DNA of 24,590 nucleotides from IMG/VR virus record IMGVR_UViG_3300013120_000096, positions 1 through 24,590 of that record; one strand, written 5' to 3'. Of the stretch, positions 1,652 to 18,111 are shown piece by piece. Below the pieces are notes generated by a model that was not told where the DNA came from, did not search any database, and saw only the letters and a list, made by a program, of their open reading frames with translations. The first letter of the stretch is position 1. The number at the start of each line of letters is the position of its first letter. A program made the translations under genes and the position numbers. The stretch comes from a virus.

Positions 1652-1684
1652 TATTTCAGCAATATTTCAACAATATTTCAACAT
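1652..1684 (-). repeat. Three tandem 11-bp repeats at the end of the hexapeptide-repeat gene
   Basis: On the plus strand TATTTCAGCAA, TATTTCAACAA and TATTTCAACAT lie head to tail. The last copy runs into the final codons and stop of the hexapeptide-repeat gene. Eleven bp is about one helical turn and not a multiple of three, so the pattern is not driven by protein coding. Confidence 0.7.
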
Positions 1685-1965
1685 ACTTTAGCATCACCAT
1701 ATACCCTAGCATTATCATATACACAAGCATTATCCCATATCCAAGCATTATCATATACACAAGCATTACCAGATACTCTAGCATTATCGAATACTTTAGC
1801 ATTATCATACACCCAAGCATTACCATCTTGACTCAAGTTATTTTCATTTTCAATCCATCCACCTAGGTCACCTTTTCTTACGTCTTTGAAGTCTTTTAAC
1901 GCTTCAATTTGATATAAAGTCCTATTATAATGTTGCATTTTATTATCTGTTAATTTAAATTTCAT
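1678..1965 (-). CDS. Left-handed beta-helix (hexapeptide repeat) phage protein
   Basis: Residues 1-45 hold a conserved phage leader (YQIEALKDF followed by DVRKGDLGGWIENE). From about residue 48 come tandem six-residue turns of the type [VYWI][YFW]DNA[RKWC]V: GNAWVY, DNAKVF, DNARVS, GNACVY and so on. This is the isoleucine-patch pattern of a left-handed beta-helix as in hexapeptide transferases, but with no catalytic domain. Proteins of this design are common in phages; their function is unknown to me. At 95 residues it stops abruptly in YGDAKVC at a set of 11-bp repeats, so the C-terminal coils may have been lost. The repeats make the DNA look CRISPR-like. The ribosome site is AGGAGGAAATT. 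Confidence 0.7.
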   Translation of the reverse strand: MKFKLTDNKMQHYNRTLYQIEALKDFKDVRKGDLGGWIENENNLSQDGNAWVYDNAKVFDNARVSGNACVYDNAWIWDNACVYDNARVYGDAKVC

Positions 1966-10240: not shown

Positions 10241-10990
10241 ATGGAAAACATAAGATTAATAAATGGGGATTGTTTAGAAGTTATGGACCAATTAATAAAA
10301 GAAGGCATTAAAGTAAATGCAGTTATATGTGATTTGCCTTACGGTACAACAAATAGTCCTTGGGATATTATAATACCATTTGAAGAATTATGGGATAAAA
10401 TAAATAAAATTACTTATGATGATTCTGCTATAATTCTTTTTGGTGCTGAACCATTTAGCAGTTATTTAAGATTAAGTAATATAGAGAATTATAAGTATGA
10501 GATCATATGGGAAAAGCCTAGTGCTAAAGGATTTCAAAATGCTAAAATACAAGTTTTAAGAGCGCATGAAAATATAAGTGTATTTTATAAAAAACAATGT
10601 ACTTATAACCCTCAAAAAACATATGGGCATGAAATGAAAAAATCAAACAAGAAGGCAACGACAGAATCTGAATGTTATAACAATAATACAAAAGACTGTG
10701 TCTATGAATCTACCGAAAGATACCCAAGAAGCGTTATAAAGTTTTCTCAAGATACTCAATTTTCTAACTACCATGTTAACCAAAAACCTATTAAATTAAT
10801 GGAATGGTTAGTTAACACATATAGTAATCGTGGTGATCTTATTATTGATATGACTATGGGTAGCGGTTCGACTGGTGTTGCTTGCAAGTCAAGAGGTAGA
10901 GACTTTATAGGTATAGAAAAAGATGTTAGACATTTTAATAATGCCGTTGAAAGACTGCAGTATGAAGGTAATCAAATATGTTTGTTCTAG
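10241..10990 (+). CDS. Orphan DNA methyltransferase (beta class, N6-adenine or N4-cytosine)
   Basis: The 249-residue enzyme has the amino-methyltransferase catalytic motif in the form DLPYG (residues 31-35, normally DPPY or NPPY) near the start and the SAM-binding motif DMTMGSGSTG at 203-212 near the end. This is the beta-class order, with the target-recognition region between. The QKPIKLMEWLV segment before motif I is typical of the N6_N4_Mtase family. No restriction gene adjoins, so it is an orphan enzyme, most simply protecting phage DNA from host restriction. It is the only gene on the plus strand. AAGGAGGTACAC precedes the ATG. No good promoter lies directly upstream, so it may depend on read-through from 9918-9946. 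Confidence 0.9.
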   Translation: MENIRLINGDCLEVMDQLIKEGIKVNAVICDLPYGTTNSPWDIIIPFEELWDKINKITYDDSAIILFGAEPFSSYLRLSNIENYKYEIIWEKPSAKGFQNAKIQVLRAHENISVFYKKQCTYNPQKTYGHEMKKSNKKATTESECYNNNTKDCVYESTERYPRSVIKFSQDTQFSNYHVNQKPIKLMEWLVNTYSNRGDLIIDMTMGSGSTGVACKSRGRDFIGIEKDVRHFNNAVERLQYEGNQICLF

Positions 10991-11299: not shown

Positions 11300-11506
11300 T
11301 CATTTTTTAGTTGGGTTGTAAACTCCAGGAGTGGTAGGGTCTGTAGTTAATCCTAAAACAGTCATAATACTACAGATGATCTTAATAGTAGTGTCTAACC
11401 ATTCTAAATCAACTTTAACGCCAAATTGTGTTAATAGTAACCCGACCATACCAACTAAACCTATTAATGTACCTGGGTGTCTTAATCTTTTAATTAATTC
11501 TTTCAT
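11300..11506 (-). CDS. Holin, phi-LC3 family
   Basis: The 68-residue protein has two hydrophobic helices (about residues 11-28, PGTLIGLVGMVGLLLTQFG, and 38-55, TTIKIICSIMTVLGL) and the conserved ending GLTTDPTTPG, a hallmark of phi-LC3 holins (Phage_holin_1). Holins accumulate in the membrane and open it at a set time so that the endolysin reaches the wall. It is the last gene of the late operon, nine bases behind the endolysin, with an AGGAGGAAGT site, and is followed by a strong terminator. Order endolysin-then-holin is less usual than the reverse. Confidence 0.85.
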   Translation of the reverse strand: MKELIKRLRHPGTLIGLVGMVGLLLTQFGVKVDLEWLDTTIKIICSIMTVLGLTTDPTTPGVYNPTKK

Positions 11507-11514
11507 ACTTCCTC

Positions 11515-11940
11515 CTATACATGATAAATTTTATATGACATTCCATTATGCTTGCTCCAAGAACTCCAAGGAGTACCAATATCACAATGGATCCATTGAA
11601 TTTTATTTTGACTGTTAAGGTAAATACCCATGTTGTTAAATCCAATACCTGAGAATAAATCTTTTAATGCTTCAACTCCCCATACGGAAAAACCGAACTT
11701 TACATCAGCAGCAATGCCTTTTAAATGATAACTATTACTAGAACCTCCTACACTTGAATTAAAACTAGGTGTCCTATATCCACTTGTGATTTCTGTTGGT
11801 CCTACAATGTTTCTAATTTCTTGTAACTTATAAATTAAATCTAAGTCAATCTTTAAATAAGTTCCACCCGATAAATGGTTGGCAAACTCATCTAAGGTAA
11901 AGTTTTTTGTTACTCTTACATCTTCCATTAACTTAATCAT
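11515..11940 (-). CDS. Endolysin, M15-type zinc peptidase
   Basis: The 141 residues are a single catalytic domain of the M15_3 (D-Ala-D-Ala carboxypeptidase / L-Ala-D-Glu endopeptidase) type. SGYRTPSFN (53-61) is the substrate loop, H72 and D79 in YHLKGIAAD are two zinc ligands, and WIHCD (H118, D120) gives the third ligand region. Such enzymes cut peptide stems of peptidoglycan. There is no signal peptide, so release needs the holin next door, and no wall-binding domain. The start overlaps the ComEA-like stop (ATGA), with AGGAGGTATTACAG. A virion wall-digesting role is the less likely alternative, given the neighbouring holin. Confidence 0.9.
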   Translation of the reverse strand: MIKLMEDVRVTKNFTLDEFANHLSGGTYLKIDLDLIYKLQEIRNIVGPTEITSGYRTPSFNSSVGGSSNSYHLKGIAADVKFGFSVWGVEALKDLFSGIGFNNMGIYLNSQNKIQWIHCDIGTPWSSWSKHNGMSYKIYHV

Positions 11941-12191
11941 CTGTAATACCTCCTTAGCTTACTTATGATACTATCTCCAATATACCTTATATCGTCTAAA
12001 CCTTCAATTCTAGCGGTTTTATTAAGTTGTAGATATGAATATATCTCTTGTGAGTAGTACTCGCCTATACCGTCTATTTCTTGTAATTCTTCTATGGTTG
12101 CCGTGTGAATATCAGGGCGGTATAACACCACCCCAGTAGTTGTTGATATTAAAACGGTAAATATAACTAATATTATTATTTTACCTTTCAC
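11937..12191 (-). CDS. Membrane-anchored ComEA-like helix-hairpin-helix protein (short form)
   Basis: Residues 4-24 are one membrane helix or uncleaved signal (KIIILVIFTVLISTTTGVVL) behind a Lys-rich start, so the rest should face outward. Residues 28-83 match a ComEA-type pair of helix-hairpin-helix motifs: IHTATIEELQEIDGIGEYYS (hairpin IDGIG) and IRYIGDSIISKLRRYY. ComEA binds double-stranded DNA outside the membrane during competence. Start is GTG behind GGGAGGTCATC, overlapping the upstream gene by 11 bp; the endolysin follows with an ATGA overlap. A second, longer relative lies at 17462-17920. The role in a phage is unknown: DNA entry, superinfection exclusion, or lysis timing can be imagined. 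Confidence 0.7.
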   Translation of the reverse strand: MKGKIIILVIFTVLISTTTGVVLYRPDIHTATIEELQEIDGIGEYYSQEIYSYLQLNKTARIEGLDDIRYIGDSIISKLRRYYR

Positions 12192-12414
12192 GATGACCTC
12201 CCATTAATATATCTAGGATTTTATCGAGTTTTGCGTCTAATTTATCAGTTTGACGATTATAATCCTCTTTTTTAACATACTCGTCTTTAATCCTCTTTAT
12301 TTCTTCAGTATTCTTGTCTGTATCACTATTCAATTTTGCATACACTATGCCAACCAATCCTACTATTATTGTTAAGCTCCCTGTCACTAAAGCTATTATT
12401 GTTGTACTACTCAT
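12181..12414 (-). CDS. Small membrane protein with coiled-coil tail, 77 residues
   Basis: MSSTTIIALVTGSLTIIVGL and VGIVYAKLN form one membrane helix (about 4-27). The tail (TDKNTEEIKRIKDEYVKKED then YNRQTDKLDAKLDKILDILM) is a heptad-rich coiled coil. XhlA-type phage lysis proteins have the mirror layout, so a holin-assisting role is conceivable in this lysis cassette but not shown. I start it at ATG 12414, where GGAGGGCAAAAC stands in front; a frame opening 13 residues earlier has no site. It overlaps its upstream neighbour by 8 bp and the ComEA-like gene by 11 bp. Confidence 0.7.
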   Translation of the reverse strand: MSSTTIIALVTGSLTIIVGLVGIVYAKLNSDTDKNTEEIKRIKDEYVKKEDYNRQTDKLDAKLDKILDILMGGHRER

Positions 12415-12541
12415 GTTTTGCCCTCCGTTTTTGTACCCTCTCTGAAACTGCATTCCAGAACATGCACGCGTACCCTATGAATGCTGCTGTAAAAAAAGGT
12501 ACTGCAACGTACGAAATTATAACAAGTGTAACTTTAAACAT
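12407..12541 (-). CDS. Small single-span membrane protein, 44 residues
   Basis: The frame reads MFKVTLVIISYVAVPFFTAA then FIGYACMFWNAVSERVQKRR and ends AKHE: one hydrophobic helix (about 4-29) and a basic tail. The site TAGGTGATTAG precedes the ATG, and the start comes eight bases after the stop of the 1177-residue protein. The overlap with the next start (ATGAGTAG) shows tight packing. The positively charged C-terminus suggests N-out, C-in topology. Too short to classify; an additional holin or lysis regulator fits its place between virion and lysis genes. Confidence 0.6.
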   Translation of the reverse strand: MFKVTLVIISYVAVPFFTAAFIGYACMFWNAVSERVQKRRAKHE

Positions 12542-12549
12542 CTAATCAC

Positions 12550-15500
12550 CTACAATCCTAATTCGTCTTTTGTTTGGTCATAAATACGATTAATCAGCTT
12601 TTCTGTTAACTTAGCTCTAGTTTCGTCATCTGTATCTATATAAGTGTCAGAAGCGAACCAATTATCTAATTCCGTTTTAACCGCTTGTCCAAATGTTTCT
12701 TTAAATCTTCTCACCATAATTTTATCATCTTTTATAGAATTTGGCAATCTGCTAGGTATTACACCAGTTTCTCCAACAGATTCAAATAGTCTTTGTATTT
12801 CTAGTATAGTAGGGTCATCTGTAACTTTTTGTTTGCGTGATGGGTTAATAAAGACATCAAAGAATCTTTCTAAACCTTTTCTATCATCTTGTTCTTTTAC
12901 TGGTTGACCAAACATATCAAGTTGAGGTAATAACTTTTTACGTGTAGTGGGTATTTTACGTTGTATAATTTCTCCAACGTTACTATAATCAATCTCACGT
13001 TTAACAGGATCGGTAAACTGTCCTATTTGTCCTGAAAGTGTAGGAACGAATTGAGTAGGTGAATTAGTTATAGTTTCAACAACACCTTCAGTAGGTGTAC
13101 CGTATTGACCGCCAAATAAGTTTGTAATACCTCTTAACAACGATTGTTCGAATAATGTATCCCCACCTGATACTGTACCTTTTTTAATTTTCTCCAAAAA
13201 CTCATCTTCTTTAAGTCCTGCATTGTAAAAATCAGCACCGATTGCAAGTGGTATTGCTGCGGGTTGCGCCCAATCGTAAGAATGCCACGTATCACCTATT
13301 TTAATAGAATATTGTTGATCGCCAAGTTGTCTTTCTAATGCACGCTCTTTGCCTTTTGTTTGACTCTTGCCAGTGATATAACCATTTTTAGCAAGTGAGT
13401 AGCCTAACGCTGCTATACCTGTGCCTGTAAACATTCTACCAACAGCATCAGTAAATGCCTTTTGATTGTTTTTAACACCGTATTTACCTGCTTTTATAAG
13501 ATTAGGGTTCCCTATCTTTTTACCAATAGATTCAACACCACTAGCACCGATTTTAGCACCTATATTAATTAAATTTAAAGGTGTATATTCTAACCCTTTT
13601 TCTAAAATGTTAGCAGGAGTTTGAGTATACGGCATTGCTATATCACCTAAACCGTAATCAATACCAGGTACTTTAGCTTTATTCATACCTCTTTTAACAG
13701 TAGATAAAACATCAGCTGCAGTACCTTGGTTTTGGAATACTCTTTGTAATGCAAATTCTTGTGCTAATTTATCAAGTTCTTCTTCTGTACCTTTAACACC
13801 AAGCCTTTTAAGTTCTCCTAATCTCGAATCATATGCAGCTTGATAGAAAGGTCTATCACCTAGTTTTAAAGCATCACCAAGCCAGTTATTAGCTTTATTT
13901 AACCAACTTATTTCGAACACTTTTCTACTTCTAGGAAGTTCTATACCACCTCTAGTAGGTGATGTATCTATATTAAGTCTAATATCTTCTATTGATTCTT
14001 TTGCACCCTTTCCAAATCCCTTTAATTGATCAACTATGTTAGGTATAACAGAGGTTTGTCTACCCGTCTTTAATATTTTAGATACCATAGCATCAGTTAT
14101 ACCACTTGGTATTTGAGCAATATTTTCTAATCCACCAAATATAACATTACCTAATGGATTTCTAGTGAGAGTTGTTTTTACATTACCAAGTAAAGACAAA
14201 TTTCTTAGCGCTCTTATTTTATCTCCCATGCTAACGGGTATTTTGTCGGTTATTAATTGATCTACCTTTGCTATTTCGATATCTCTAGGTCTACCTGTTA
14301 AATCCTGCGCTTTTTCCATAGTTTCTTTTATGAATTGAAAATCTTCTGGTGTTATCTCGGGTAATTTCCCTTGTGCTTCTAAAGCTTTATATGCATCTGG
14401 GAAGTTTTCTATTAAATCCTTTTTTATACCTTCGATAACTTTAACAGCATCAACGAGTTTGCCTTCTGGTGTTGTTTTAGCAAGCATAGAAATAGCTTGT
14501 ATTGCTCGTCCGCCTTGTGTTCCTTTGTTAGCAAAATTAGTTGCCAAATCAATAGCACCTTCAATATTGCCAGTTTTAGATAAATTGTGTAGTAATGCAA
14601 TTGTTTCTGCTGTATCATCCGCACTTTCCAAAGCTTCTTTTGAATATAATTTGTCTAATGCTTCGTTAGGATTACTATTAACTTTATCAAATGCTTTATT
14701 CCAAGTATCTTCGTTAGTTATAGCTTTATAAGTTTGAGGATTATCATCAAAGAAACTTTTAACTTCATCAGGCAAGTTAGATCTCATTAATGAGTTATCA
14801 ATCGTCCTTCTTAATTTTTGTTCTTCAATTGGTATATTAAGTTTAAACCCTTGGTCGTCTATTCCAGCAGCTATTGTTTTTGTTTCTTGATTTCTTAATA
14901 TATCAGTTAACGGTGTTTTACTAACAGGTTTATCCACAACTGTTGATAAAGTTTGTCTAGTTGGTCCTAATTGCGGTTGTGTAGAAACTCCAGAACCTTT
15001 TAAAGCTTGTATTTGTGGCACATCTGTTTTAAGTGTAGAAGGCACTTGCAAATCAGCACCTAAAGCACTTCTAACCTTCGAAGCTTCTTCAGGAGTTAAA
15101 GCACTAACTGCCTTTTCGAATCCTGCACTATCAGCAGTTTTTAAGCTTTTGAGGAACTCCCCACCTACACCCATACCTAAGTTCATACCAATATCAATAA
15201 GACGATTTATACCGATTTTACCTAGTGTATCACCTCTTTTTAGTTCTTGTGGAGTCTGTATAACTGTATCTACAAATAAATCAACCAATTGATCTGCTGC
15301 AAATGTACCAGCTTTACCAAACTTATTACCTAGTTGAGTCGATAATGCTTGACCAAGTTCAGTGCCTTTAAGTGCTGCACCTACTGTAGCGTATAATACC
15401 GCTTGCTTGCCTAGTTCACCAACAACCCTACCAGTACCAAACCCCTTTTGAGTTTTAGCAGTTTCTAATGCTTGTTGTGATGCTTCAGCTCTCTCGGGTG

Positions 15501-16083
15501 TTGCTTGTTGTGCGCCAAACTTAGCAGTAGGTTGTAAAAATACACTTTCACGTAATCCTGATTTAAAACCATGTTGATTAGCAGTTATAAGGTTTCTAGT
15601 TGCTAGTATATCCTCAGTTAATCTAGTTTGTGCTGTTGCGTCAGGTTCTGGACTCTCTTCTATTTTTCTAGTTTCAGATAAAAGATTCTCGAGTCTTTCT
15701 TCTGCACCTAACAATGTCTTTTTTCTCTGCGTTTCTTTAGCTTTTACTTCTGATGCTCTTTGACGTTGCTCCTTCTGCAATTCTTGCGATTGTAATTTTG
15801 CTCTACCTGCTCTAGTAGTAATATTAGGACTATTACTACCTCTTTTACCTCGTCCACCTACATAAGCAGGTGCGGTTGGCAATGGTTTAACGCTTTCTAA
15901 ATCAGGAGTAACAGTTTCGGTTTTTAATAAAGTTGATAGTTTAGGTGAAGTAATAGCTTGATCTAAAGATTGTCTAATACCACTTGTAATAGTTTCAGGT
16001 TTCTTTGCTTGTGCCAACTCACTAGGAGATTTAAATTCTTTAAATTGTGGTTTACCTGTTAAAAGGCTTGATAATCTACCCAT
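12550..16083 (-). CDS. Large internal virion / DNA-ejection protein with LPD38-like domain, 1177 residues
   Basis: The protein is long, Ala/Gly/Thr/Lys-rich and mostly helical. The N-terminal 150 residues are disordered and charged; about 225-310 is an Ala/Gly-rich amphipathic stretch (GTGRVVGELGKQAVLYATVG), a candidate membrane-active segment. At about 800-850 PGIDYGLGDIAMPYTQTPAN followed by ILEKGLEYTPLNL matches LPD38, a domain of large polyvalent proteins in phages and mobile elements. Its size, lack of enzyme motifs and position behind the tail genes suggest the role of T7 gp16 or P22 ejection proteins: leaving the virion to form a conduit across the envelope. Translation starts at ATG behind TAGGGGGATTT. 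Confidence 0.7.
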   Translation of the reverse strand: MGRLSSLLTGKPQFKEFKSPSELAQAKKPETITSGIRQSLDQAITSPKLSTLLKTETVTPDLESVKPLPTAPAYVGGRGKRGSNSPNITTRAGRAKLQSQELQKEQRQRASEVKAKETQRKKTLLGAEERLENLLSETRKIEESPEPDATAQTRLTEDILATRNLITANQHGFKSGLRESVFLQPTAKFGAQQATPERAEASQQALETAKTQKGFGTGRVVGELGKQAVLYATVGAALKGTELGQALSTQLGNKFGKAGTFAADQLVDLFVDTVIQTPQELKRGDTLGKIGINRLIDIGMNLGMGVGGEFLKSLKTADSAGFEKAVSALTPEEASKVRSALGADLQVPSTLKTDVPQIQALKGSGVSTQPQLGPTRQTLSTVVDKPVSKTPLTDILRNQETKTIAAGIDDQGFKLNIPIEEQKLRRTIDNSLMRSNLPDEVKSFFDDNPQTYKAITNEDTWNKAFDKVNSNPNEALDKLYSKEALESADDTAETIALLHNLSKTGNIEGAIDLATNFANKGTQGGRAIQAISMLAKTTPEGKLVDAVKVIEGIKKDLIENFPDAYKALEAQGKLPEITPEDFQFIKETMEKAQDLTGRPRDIEIAKVDQLITDKIPVSMGDKIRALRNLSLLGNVKTTLTRNPLGNVIFGGLENIAQIPSGITDAMVSKILKTGRQTSVIPNIVDQLKGFGKGAKESIEDIRLNIDTSPTRGGIELPRSRKVFEISWLNKANNWLGDALKLGDRPFYQAAYDSRLGELKRLGVKGTEEELDKLAQEFALQRVFQNQGTAADVLSTVKRGMNKAKVPGIDYGLGDIAMPYTQTPANILEKGLEYTPLNLINIGAKIGASGVESIGKKIGNPNLIKAGKYGVKNNQKAFTDAVGRMFTGTGIAALGYSLAKNGYITGKSQTKGKERALERQLGDQQYSIKIGDTWHSYDWAQPAAIPLAIGADFYNAGLKEDEFLEKIKKGTVSGGDTLFEQSLLRGITNLFGGQYGTPTEGVVETITNSPTQFVPTLSGQIGQFTDPVKREIDYSNVGEIIQRKIPTTRKKLLPQLDMFGQPVKEQDDRKGLERFFDVFINPSRKQKVTDDPTILEIQRLFESVGETGVIPSRLPNSIKDDKIMVRRFKETFGQAVKTELDNWFASDTYIDTDDETRAKLTEKLINRIYDQTKDELGL

Positions 16084-16091
16084 AAATCCCC

Positions 16092-17465
16092 CTATCTAAA
16101 TGGACTTTCAAATTCAATTTGGTTTTGTAATGCTCGTTCTCTAAAATCTTCGTATTCTTCAAGTTCGCTTTCAGATATATTACTTCTAATAAGTGTATCT
16201 CTTAGTAAACCTATATCATTTGCAAATACATCGGCATTGCTAGTAATGTACTCTAAAGTTGTTCTTTTTATATCCTGAGGACTAGCCAATTCGAGTTGAC
16301 TACCGTATTGTTGTTGTAGTGCGTTGTTAATGCCTGAATCAATTGTAGATTGACTTGGGCCAGATACTTCTTCTTGTCTTAGTGTATCTTTAAAAGCTGC
16401 GGTTGCTCTGCTTTGCGCCCCTCTAGCACCTATTTCTCTTAGAGTGTTAGAGCTTCTAGCACCTTCTAATTGAAGTTTGCCTGCTTGTCTGATACCTTCT
16501 AATTGAAGATCGTTAGCAGCTTTCTGTTGTGTTAATTCTTGTTCGCGTACGAAATTGTTAGATGCTTTAGCTTCGGCTATTTCGAAATCAATAGATTTAT
16601 TACGTTCGACAAGTTCTTGTTCAAATAACTTCATGTCTCTAGCGTCTGCATTTTCTACTTGACGTAAGTAATCAGCATATTCTCTTGATTCTGCTAATAC
16701 AGCTTTTTCACGTTCGTATTCTGCTTGTGCTTCAACACTTCTTAACTGTGATTCAATCTGTTGTATTTCTATTTCGGTGTTGATATCAGCTATACCTTGG
16801 TCTCTTAAAGACTGTAATTCTGTTCTTCTACGTTCAATATCTGCTCTTTGTGCAAGTTCTTGTTGATTAAGTCCGCTTATAGCGCCTTGGGTAATAACAT
16901 TCTGAGCGGTAGCAGATTGACCAACTTGTCCTGCTTGACCTAAACCGCCAATATCTAAGAATTTACTTTTGCCTGCTCTTGCTAATGTATCTTTAGTTCT
17001 TACTTGACTTTCTTTAGTTCTAAAATTTCCGGCTATTGCCGATTCTTCTTGGTCTAATCTTCCTTGTGATAAATCAAATTGTCTATTTAAAGAATCAATA
17101 GCTTTTTTTCTGTTAGCTGCAATCAACTGTGCGTTAAGTTCGTCAGCTGTCGGACCACTAGGAGTAGTTGGAGTAGAAACGGTAGGTGTTTGTTGTTCTC
17201 TTGATTCTATTACAGATCTTCTTCTCTGTTGTTCTGCTCTTTGTGCATCATCCATTTTCAAAAAGTCAGGCATTTGATTATTACCAGCACCTACAGGGTC
17301 AAGGGTTTGTACTTGTGGTTGCGCTGTAACTTGTGGTGTTGCTGGCTTTGGCGCTGATGCGGCAGGTAATCTAGGAACTGTTTTTTTTGGTTTTTTCTTT
17401 TCTTCTATGGTATTACCTTGCGCATCAATAACCTGCGCAAAATGTTGAAGGTTTATTCTAATCAT
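16092..17465 (-). CDS. Coiled-coil internal virion protein, 457 residues
   Basis: After MIRINLQHFAQ, an opening of the LQxFA type common in Gram-positive phage structural proteins, come about 110 residues of Pro/Thr/Gln-rich disorder (AASAPKPATPQVTAQPQVQT). Then a long Gln/Glu/Arg/Ala helix follows (for example RRRTELQSLRDQGIADINTE, AEYEREKAVLAESREYADYL). Residues about 155-205 (GKSKFLDIGGLGQAGQVGQS) are Gly-rich. No enzyme motif is present. Placed immediately before the LPD38 protein, it is probably the second ejection/internal core protein, analogous in composition to T7 gp15/gp14-like proteins; homology is not claimed. AAGGAGGACTC precedes the ATG, which overlaps the ComEA-like gene end. 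Confidence 0.65.
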   Translation of the reverse strand: MIRINLQHFAQVIDAQGNTIEEKKKPKKTVPRLPAASAPKPATPQVTAQPQVQTLDPVGAGNNQMPDFLKMDDAQRAEQQRRRSVIESREQQTPTVSTPTTPSGPTADELNAQLIAANRKKAIDSLNRQFDLSQGRLDQEESAIAGNFRTKESQVRTKDTLARAGKSKFLDIGGLGQAGQVGQSATAQNVITQGAISGLNQQELAQRADIERRRTELQSLRDQGIADINTEIEIQQIESQLRSVEAQAEYEREKAVLAESREYADYLRQVENADARDMKLFEQELVERNKSIDFEIAEAKASNNFVREQELTQQKAANDLQLEGIRQAGKLQLEGARSSNTLREIGARGAQSRATAAFKDTLRQEEVSGPSQSTIDSGINNALQQQYGSQLELASPQDIKRTTLEYITSNADVFANDIGLLRDTLIRSNISESELEEYEDFRERALQNQIEFESPFR

Positions 17466-17920
17466 GAGTCCTCCTTAGCAATTATTCTATCTTTAATATT
17501 ATTATACAGCTGTTCACCTATTAAGTCTAATAACTGATCTTTATCATGGTATGGTCTATTGTCTATAATTAGGTTTGCCCTAATTTCTCCCACACCGTAT
17601 AATTCGGTTAATTCTTCGTATGTACAATGGTTTACGTCAATCTTGTGCGATTGGTCTATAAATGCAATAAATGTTGATACAAGTAGAATTATGAGGAATA
17701 AAGCTATAATTGAAGCCTTTAACCTCTTATCTATCTTGAATTTTGTTGTTTTAGCGGTTGTATCGTCATTATTTAGGACTATATTGTTAATTTTAGTAAA
17801 GAGGGAATAGGTTTTATCCTTCTTCCCTTCCTCACTAACTATGATGTTCATGTACCATCTAACCCACAGTAAACATAATGCGATTGTAAGTAACCCGAAT
17901 ATTACTATAGTTTCAACCAT
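17462..17920 (-). CDS. Two-helix membrane protein with ComEA-like helix-hairpin-helix domain
   Basis: Residues 4-27 (TIVIFGLLTIALCLLWV) and 69-88 (ASIIALFLIILLVSTFIAFI) are membrane helices. The loop between them is Lys-rich (EEGKKDKTY..KFKIDKRLK), so it should be inside, leaving the C-terminus outside. Residues 93-147 are a ComEA-type double helix-hairpin-helix: KIDVNHCTYEELTELYGVGE (the DxN[TH]xxxEEL entry and the GVG hairpin) and LLDLIGEQLYNNIKDRI. In ComEA this module binds double-stranded DNA during uptake. The gene lies between the fibre and the two presumed ejection proteins. The start at TAATG overlaps the upstream stop, without a strong site, so it is probably coupled. Confidence 0.75.
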   Translation of the reverse strand: MVETIVIFGLLTIALCLLWVRWYMNIIVSEEGKKDKTYSLFTKINNIVLNNDDTTAKTTKFKIDKRLKASIIALFLIILLVSTFIAFIDQSHKIDVNHCTYEELTELYGVGEIRANLIIDNRPYHDKDQLLDLIGEQLYNNIKDRIIAKEDS

Positions 17921-18111
17921 TACTTACTCAATTCTATGATCTTAGCATCGATTAATACTTTGAGTTCGTCAGCTTCGTCTTGTGTAATGTGACCTAAATC
18001 TCTAATTTTGTCTAATCCCGAGTTAACTCCGTAACCGGCAACCCAGTCATTAAGTTGTGATAAGGTGTATAAGTTGTATTTTAACCCTAGTTTTATTTGT
18101 TCGGCAGCCAT
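17920..18111 (-). CDS. Small helical protein, 63 residues, fibre-associated
   Basis: MAAEQIKLGLKYNLYTLSQL then NDWVAGYGVNSGLDKIRDLG then HITQDEADELKVLIDAKIIE. The 'GHITQDEADEL' turn recalls small XkdX-like proteins found behind Gram-positive tail fibre genes, whose role is unknown. GGAGAGTAAT precedes the ATG, directly behind the 54-residue gene, and the next gene overlaps its stop. Could assist fibre assembly; not shown. Confidence 0.65.
   Translation of the reverse strand: MAAEQIKLGLKYNLYTLSQLNDWVAGYGVNSGLDKIRDLGHITQDEADELKVLIDAKIIELSK

Follow-up and report, generated by a model that had tools for sequence, protein, structure and literature searches.

Two phage proteins with ComEA-type helix-hairpin-helix domains predicted outside the membrane, and the conservation of one with the lysis cassette

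The IMG/VR virus record IMGVR_UViG_3300013120_000096, analysed here over its whole stretch of 24,590 bases (the window), comes from a podovirus-like phage. Its nearest named phages by one tail protein are Page and Pascal, members of Pagevirus that infect Bacillus megaterium (~30% identity), which it also resembles in gene order; the stretches of Page and Pascal that were searched contained no helix-hairpin-helix (HhH) protein. The late genes lie on the minus strand, running from a tail spike bearing a Peptidase_S74 chaperone through a putative adaptor, a tail-tube-like protein, a fibre and two small genes to HhH1 and the ejection-type genes. From HhH1 onward, the order is a 457-aa coiled-coil protein, an 1177-aa internal virion protein, a one-TM coiled-coil protein, HhH2, an M15 endolysin and a holin, in agreement with the neighbourhood of ejection-type genes and endolysin described in an earlier sequence-only reading of this DNA. 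The features are as follows.

17920-18111, minus strand: 63-aa protein with no family match; its stop overlaps the HhH1 start, and it is 92% identical in locus L005, at the same place before HhH1
17462-17920, minus strand: HhH1, 152 aa, with two predicted TM helices (~1-29, 63-92) and a C-terminal ComEA-type HhH domain (90-147) predicted outside
16092-17465, minus strand: 457-aa coiled-coil protein, a putative ejection protein with no Pfam or PHROG match; its start overlaps the HhH1 stop
12550-16083, minus strand: internal virion protein (T7 gp16-like), 1177 aa; phrog_6651, E=1.3e-15
12181-12453, minus strand: small one-TM coiled-coil protein, 90 aa; phrog_462, XhlA-like by layout, with an 11-nt overlap with the HhH2 start
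11937-12191, minus strand: HhH2, 84 aa, with a GTG start, one N-terminal signal anchor and a ComEA-type double HhH (27-83) predicted outside
11515-11940, minus strand: endolysin, 141 aa; Peptidase_M15_3, its start overlapping the HhH2 stop (ATGA)
11300-11506, minus strand: holin, 68 aa; phrog_297 / Phage_holin_1, 97% identical in the G004 relative

Elsewhere in the window, an N6_N4 DNA methylase is encoded at 10241-10990 on the plus strand, opposite to its neighbours and between the early and late blocks, and the product of 1678-1965 (minus strand), a 95-aa protein with YDNAxV repeats, scores 31.7 bits against the YdcK beta-solenoid family, whose cut-off is 30. Promoter and terminator scans of the window stayed at chance level, and PADLOC returned one weak, irrelevant match only.

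The two HhH products are real and had been correctly placed by the sequence-only reading; both lie on the minus strand, which it had left unstated, and a plus-strand reading of either interval is full of stops. The assignment of a C-terminal ComEA-type HhH domain to each protein also holds, with Pfam HHH_3 above its cut-off of 27 bits and ComEA as the best PDB sequence match in both cases. HhH1 matches HHH_3 over residues 90-146 (E=1.7e-7, 31.7 bits), while residues 27-82 of HhH2 match both HHH_2 (27.5 bits) and HHH_3 (27.4 bits). The nearest PDB sequences are the ComEA chains 2duy (E 0.009) and 8dss (E 0.16) for HhH1, both weak, and 8dfk (E 5e-7) and 8dss (E 4e-6) for a profile of HhH2. In a set of 48 related virus records, many of which are fragmentary, HHH_3 matches occurred only in three HhH2 orthologues, so the HhH match is not a chance result. 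The first hairpin is better kept in HhH1 (GVG-x-x-R) than in HhH2, and the second hairpins, although part of ComEA-type domains as had been proposed, are degenerate in both proteins ('LIGEQ' in HhH1 and 'YIGDS' in HhH2).

Structure prediction with AlphaFold2 gave the HhH fold for HhH2, with block pLDDT values of 84-93 from residue 31 onward. The model consists of four confident helices and lacks a connector helix, an atypical layout also described for ComEA (PMC9747964), and its top Foldseek match is Geobacillus ComEA 8dss (probability 1.00, rmsd 2.1 over 57 columns), with an E of only 0.08 for this very short chain. Computation thus assigns to HhH2 a ComEA-type double HhH fold. The AlphaFold2 model of HhH1, made without an alignment, was poor and unfit for a fold search, so that the ComEA-type domain of this protein is assigned from its sequence.

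Hydropathy and charge predict that both HhH domains lie on the outer side of the membrane, as the sequence-only reading had placed them. HhH1 has two hydrophobic segments (1-29 and 63-92) separated by a K/R-rich loop (10 K+R, 6 D+E), and HhH2 has a single segment (~3-25) preceded by K2 and K4. A K/R-bearing start followed by a hydrophobic segment is common to all HhH2 proteins in the set described below, and in the most divergent of these (locus L021) AFA|AM, a sequence resembling a signal-peptidase site, closes the hydrophobic segment. This signal-peptide-like N-terminus suggests that the protein is exported as it is made and not packaged in the virion.

Orthologues of HhH2, found through neighbouring genes together with HHH_3, are present in three further virus lineages, giving a set of four sequences, including that of the window, from fragmentary records. 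Identity to the window protein is 58% in G004 (locus L063, HHH_3 33.4 bits), 35% in G001 (locus L003) and 25% in G012 (locus L021, below the HHH_3 cut-off). In all four lineages, the gene stands between that of a small one-TM coiled-coil protein and that of an endolysin. The endolysin itself is of four types (an M15 peptidase, an amidase_3 with glucosaminidase, an amidase_3, and an amidase of another PHROG), and the layout of the coiled-coil gene varies, with a C-terminal membrane helix in L063. Given that the place of HhH2 is constant while the endolysin, the coiled-coil layout and part of the internal virion protein change, HhH2 follows the lysis cassette: it is conserved with the cassette and not with the ejection proteins. 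Outside this clade, relatives of the internal virion protein occur without HhH2, and locus L020 has another holin type.

The GTG start of HhH2 lies behind GGGAGGT, inside the upstream gene, and the endolysin Shine-Dalgarno sequence AGGAGG falls within the last HhH2 codons. These overlaps and Shine-Dalgarno positions indicate translational coupling of HhH2 and its neighbours in the window and in L063. Between the same two viruses, dN/dS is 0.38 for HhH2 (dS 0.97; a rough estimate from 84 codons), in comparison to 0.02 for the holin and 0.10 for a tail protein. HhH2 is under purifying selection, yet fast-changing.

The distribution of HhH1 is narrower, and the whole gene was seen only in the window. 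Locus L005 matches the G004 record at 100% identity across 10.7 kb and therefore belongs to the same virus; its sequence ends 21 codons into a close HhH1 homologue. Thus the pairing of the two proteins probably recurs in this second virus, as judged from the first 21 HhH1 codons, which precede the HhH domain, and it does not extend to L003 and L021, where no HhH1 stands before the coiled-coil gene. The same coiled-coil ejection gene is found without a preceding HhH1 in L003, L007, L008, L011, L012, L020 and L021, confining HhH1 to the window phage and one close relative.

These distributions bear on the function first proposed for the pair, a DNA-translocation aid carried in the virion or placed early that would help phage DNA cross the wall and membrane in the manner of ComEA. 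The ComEA fold, the predicted outside location and the position of HhH1 immediately ahead of the genes for the coiled-coil protein and the internal virion protein are consistent with such an aid. Furthermore, the Enterococcus faecalis phage efap05-1 is reported to use host ComEA as its receptor, showing that ComEA-like surfaces can matter in infection (PMC9009173). However, most relatives with the same ejection genes have no HhH1 beside them, and HhH2 is tied to the lysis cassette and, from its signal-peptide-like start in L021, seems to be exported during synthesis. For these reasons, an ejection aid is the least likely of the explanations considered here. In addition, the oligomerisation domain that Gram-positive ComEA needs for transformation (PMC9747964) is absent from both proteins, in which only a linker of a few residues separates the anchor from the HhH domain.

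ComEA, the competence DNA receptor of Bacillus subtilis and Geobacillus, is nevertheless the best match to both proteins in sequence and to HhH2 in structure, sharing an N-terminal anchor and a C-terminal atypical double HhH predicted outside. It differs in its length (~200 aa, in comparison to 84-152 aa), its oligomerisation domain and its key lysine, and the phage-encoded HhH genes have no comEB or comEC beside them. Scores against the NCBIfam comE model TIGR01259 are 21.2 to 33.6 bits, with a cut-off of 152.35. Since they lack the oligomerisation domain and score far below the family cut-off, neither HhH1 nor HhH2 is a member of the ComEA family.

In B. subtilis ComEA, K164 is essential for transformation, and the equivalent K166 of Geobacillus ComEA is essential for DNA binding (PMC9747964). 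The position is occupied by Y, Y, L and L in the four HhH2 proteins and by R in HhH1, so that DNA binding by both proteins is only putative. Thermus ComEA (2duy) and another ComEA also have no lysine here, and this residue is not an absolute requirement. All five proteins have a basic residue where ComEA has K199. The C-terminus of HhH2 in the window and L063 is likewise basic; it is partly encoded by the endolysin Shine-Dalgarno sequence, and this overlap may be the reason why it is kept.

A possible alternative, though on balance a doubtful one, is that the HhH domains have lost DNA binding, as in PsbU, and serve as adaptors for the holin, a wall component or another protein, with the ComEA likeness a matter of ancestry. 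Such an adaptor would fit the loss of the K164 equivalent in all HhH2 proteins, the loss of the first-hairpin glycine in HhH2 of L003 and L021, the net negative charge of the domain in HhH1 and HhH2 of the window and in HhH2 of L003, and the presence of PsbU among the weak matches of HhH1. However, the ComEA proteins without the lysine weaken the first of these points, and some bacterial ComEA domains are equally acidic. Additionally, HhH2 stays in place while the endolysin type changes, making a specific endolysin partner unlikely.

Conservation with the lysis cassette and an exported design favour a different reading, to which we give a probability of about one in three: HhH2 would be an exported accessory of the lysis module that modulates lysis timing, and HhH1 another such protein whose role outside would be related. 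In the mechanism that we infer from the computed fold, predicted topology, synteny and purifying selection of HhH2, the protein would be made late, in translational coupling with the endolysin. Its N-terminal signal anchor would insert it so that the double HhH domain comes to lie outside the membrane, where the protein would most likely modulate lysis timing through a holin or another membrane partner, perhaps with extracytoplasmic DNA as a ligand. HhH1, with its extra membrane helix, would be a lineage-limited second protein in the tail and ejection cluster, joined to HhH2 by a link that we infer. Against this lysis-accessory reading, no outside domain is obvious in the holin of the window, the small coiled-coil protein may be oriented towards the cytoplasm, the K164 equivalent is replaced throughout the HhH2 set, lysis cassettes can harbour unrelated passenger genes, and HhH1 lies outside the lysis module.

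By analogy, HhH2 is possibly a regulator of lysis timing resembling RI, the antiholin of T4. A signal peptide directs the export of RI, and the complex that RI forms with the holin T binds DNA and reacts to superinfecting phages (PMC11413866). An exported lysis-control protein can therefore use superinfecting DNA as its signal (PMC11413866, citing Krieger 2020). RI and HhH2 are both small, with an N-terminal signal sequence and export (predicted for HhH2), the one acting in lysis control and the other encoded in a lysis cassette. The proposed likeness is functional; the folds are unrelated, and T4 has a diderm host. A narrower and distinctly improbable form of the lysis-accessory reading is that HhH2 is an extracytoplasmic DNA sensor, detecting the DNA of superinfecting phages outside the membrane and retuning lysis. 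If true, Gram-positive phages would have a lysis-inhibition system for which the fold of a competence receptor was borrowed.

The main competing explanation that has a defined precedent is, again by analogy, a block of superinfection. The sequence-only reading had offered a trap for superinfecting DNA as its second option. An outside HhH domain would bind incoming phage DNA or a tail or ejection protein and stop DNA entry, as Ltp of phage TP-J34 does, a lipid-anchored protein tethered outside the membrane that blocks injection (PMC3952083). Like Ltp, the HhH proteins are phage-encoded and, by prediction, place a small helical domain outside a Gram-positive membrane; the fast evolution of HhH2 (58% identity where the holin is 97% identical) and the retained GVG-x-x-R of HhH1 are also in keeping with exclusion. 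However, Ltp has a lipid anchor and is expressed in the prophage from a lysogeny module, whereas the HhH genes occupy late structural and lysis positions, and no integrase was found in the nine records searched, several of them fragments. No match to the Ltp family PF07553 was listed at E<=1, no lipobox was seen by eye, and the DNA-contact residues are poorly kept, the key lysine being absent from every HhH2. Exclusion is accordingly an unlikely function for the pair.

A known membrane-anchored phage protein that binds DNA is p16.7 of phi29; it differs from the HhH proteins in its cytoplasmic DNA-binding domain, its other fold and its role in replication.

Instead of aiding DNA injection, HhH2 may represent a type of lysis or superinfection sensor that has not been described before. 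At usable scores, PHROGs has no counterpart of exported ComEA-fold proteins in phage lysis cassettes. If the ComEA fold acts on DNA outside the membrane, these proteins would offer a tractable way to learn how superinfection is sensed or blocked by phages of monoderm bacteria; if the fold has no DNA-binding activity, they would clearly exemplify the reuse of a DNA-receptor fold in lysis.

The earlier view that no phage homologue has been described is borne out by tblastn against 50,697 phage records, in which the matches are host comEA and other host or polymerase genes and no annotated phage homologue appeared, although distant ones may escape tblastn. ComEA-like matches in human faecal 'Bacteriophage sp.', 'Listeria phage LM 4-11-1' and 'Acinetobacter phage MD-2021a' were rejected as host DNA, since the four contexts read in detail hold host genes such as lepA, recA, coaD and relA. 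Matches in Streptococcus suis phages were also set aside, their annotation being that of late-competence genes. When viral contigs were scanned directly with single HhH sequences, no relatives were returned. A genome-contig scan gave 12 loci, of which the four examined are LigA (two), RadC and a long ComEA-like protein, with no phage gene. In 148 genomes from the class to which an uncultured Ruminococcus belongs, the matching frames measure either 127-341 aa, as host ComEA does, or ~650-715 aa, as LigA does, apart from a single frame below 100 aa that starts at a contig edge. The phage-labelled records OR847389, MT838942 and CAKLQH020000014 hold bacterial chromosome (comEA, recA, coaD, relA) and are a source of false homologues. 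Lastly, a large part of the internal virion protein (12550-16083) is replaced by unrelated-looking sequence in L021 and G004 between neighbours that are alike, a pattern of domain swapping in an ejection protein.
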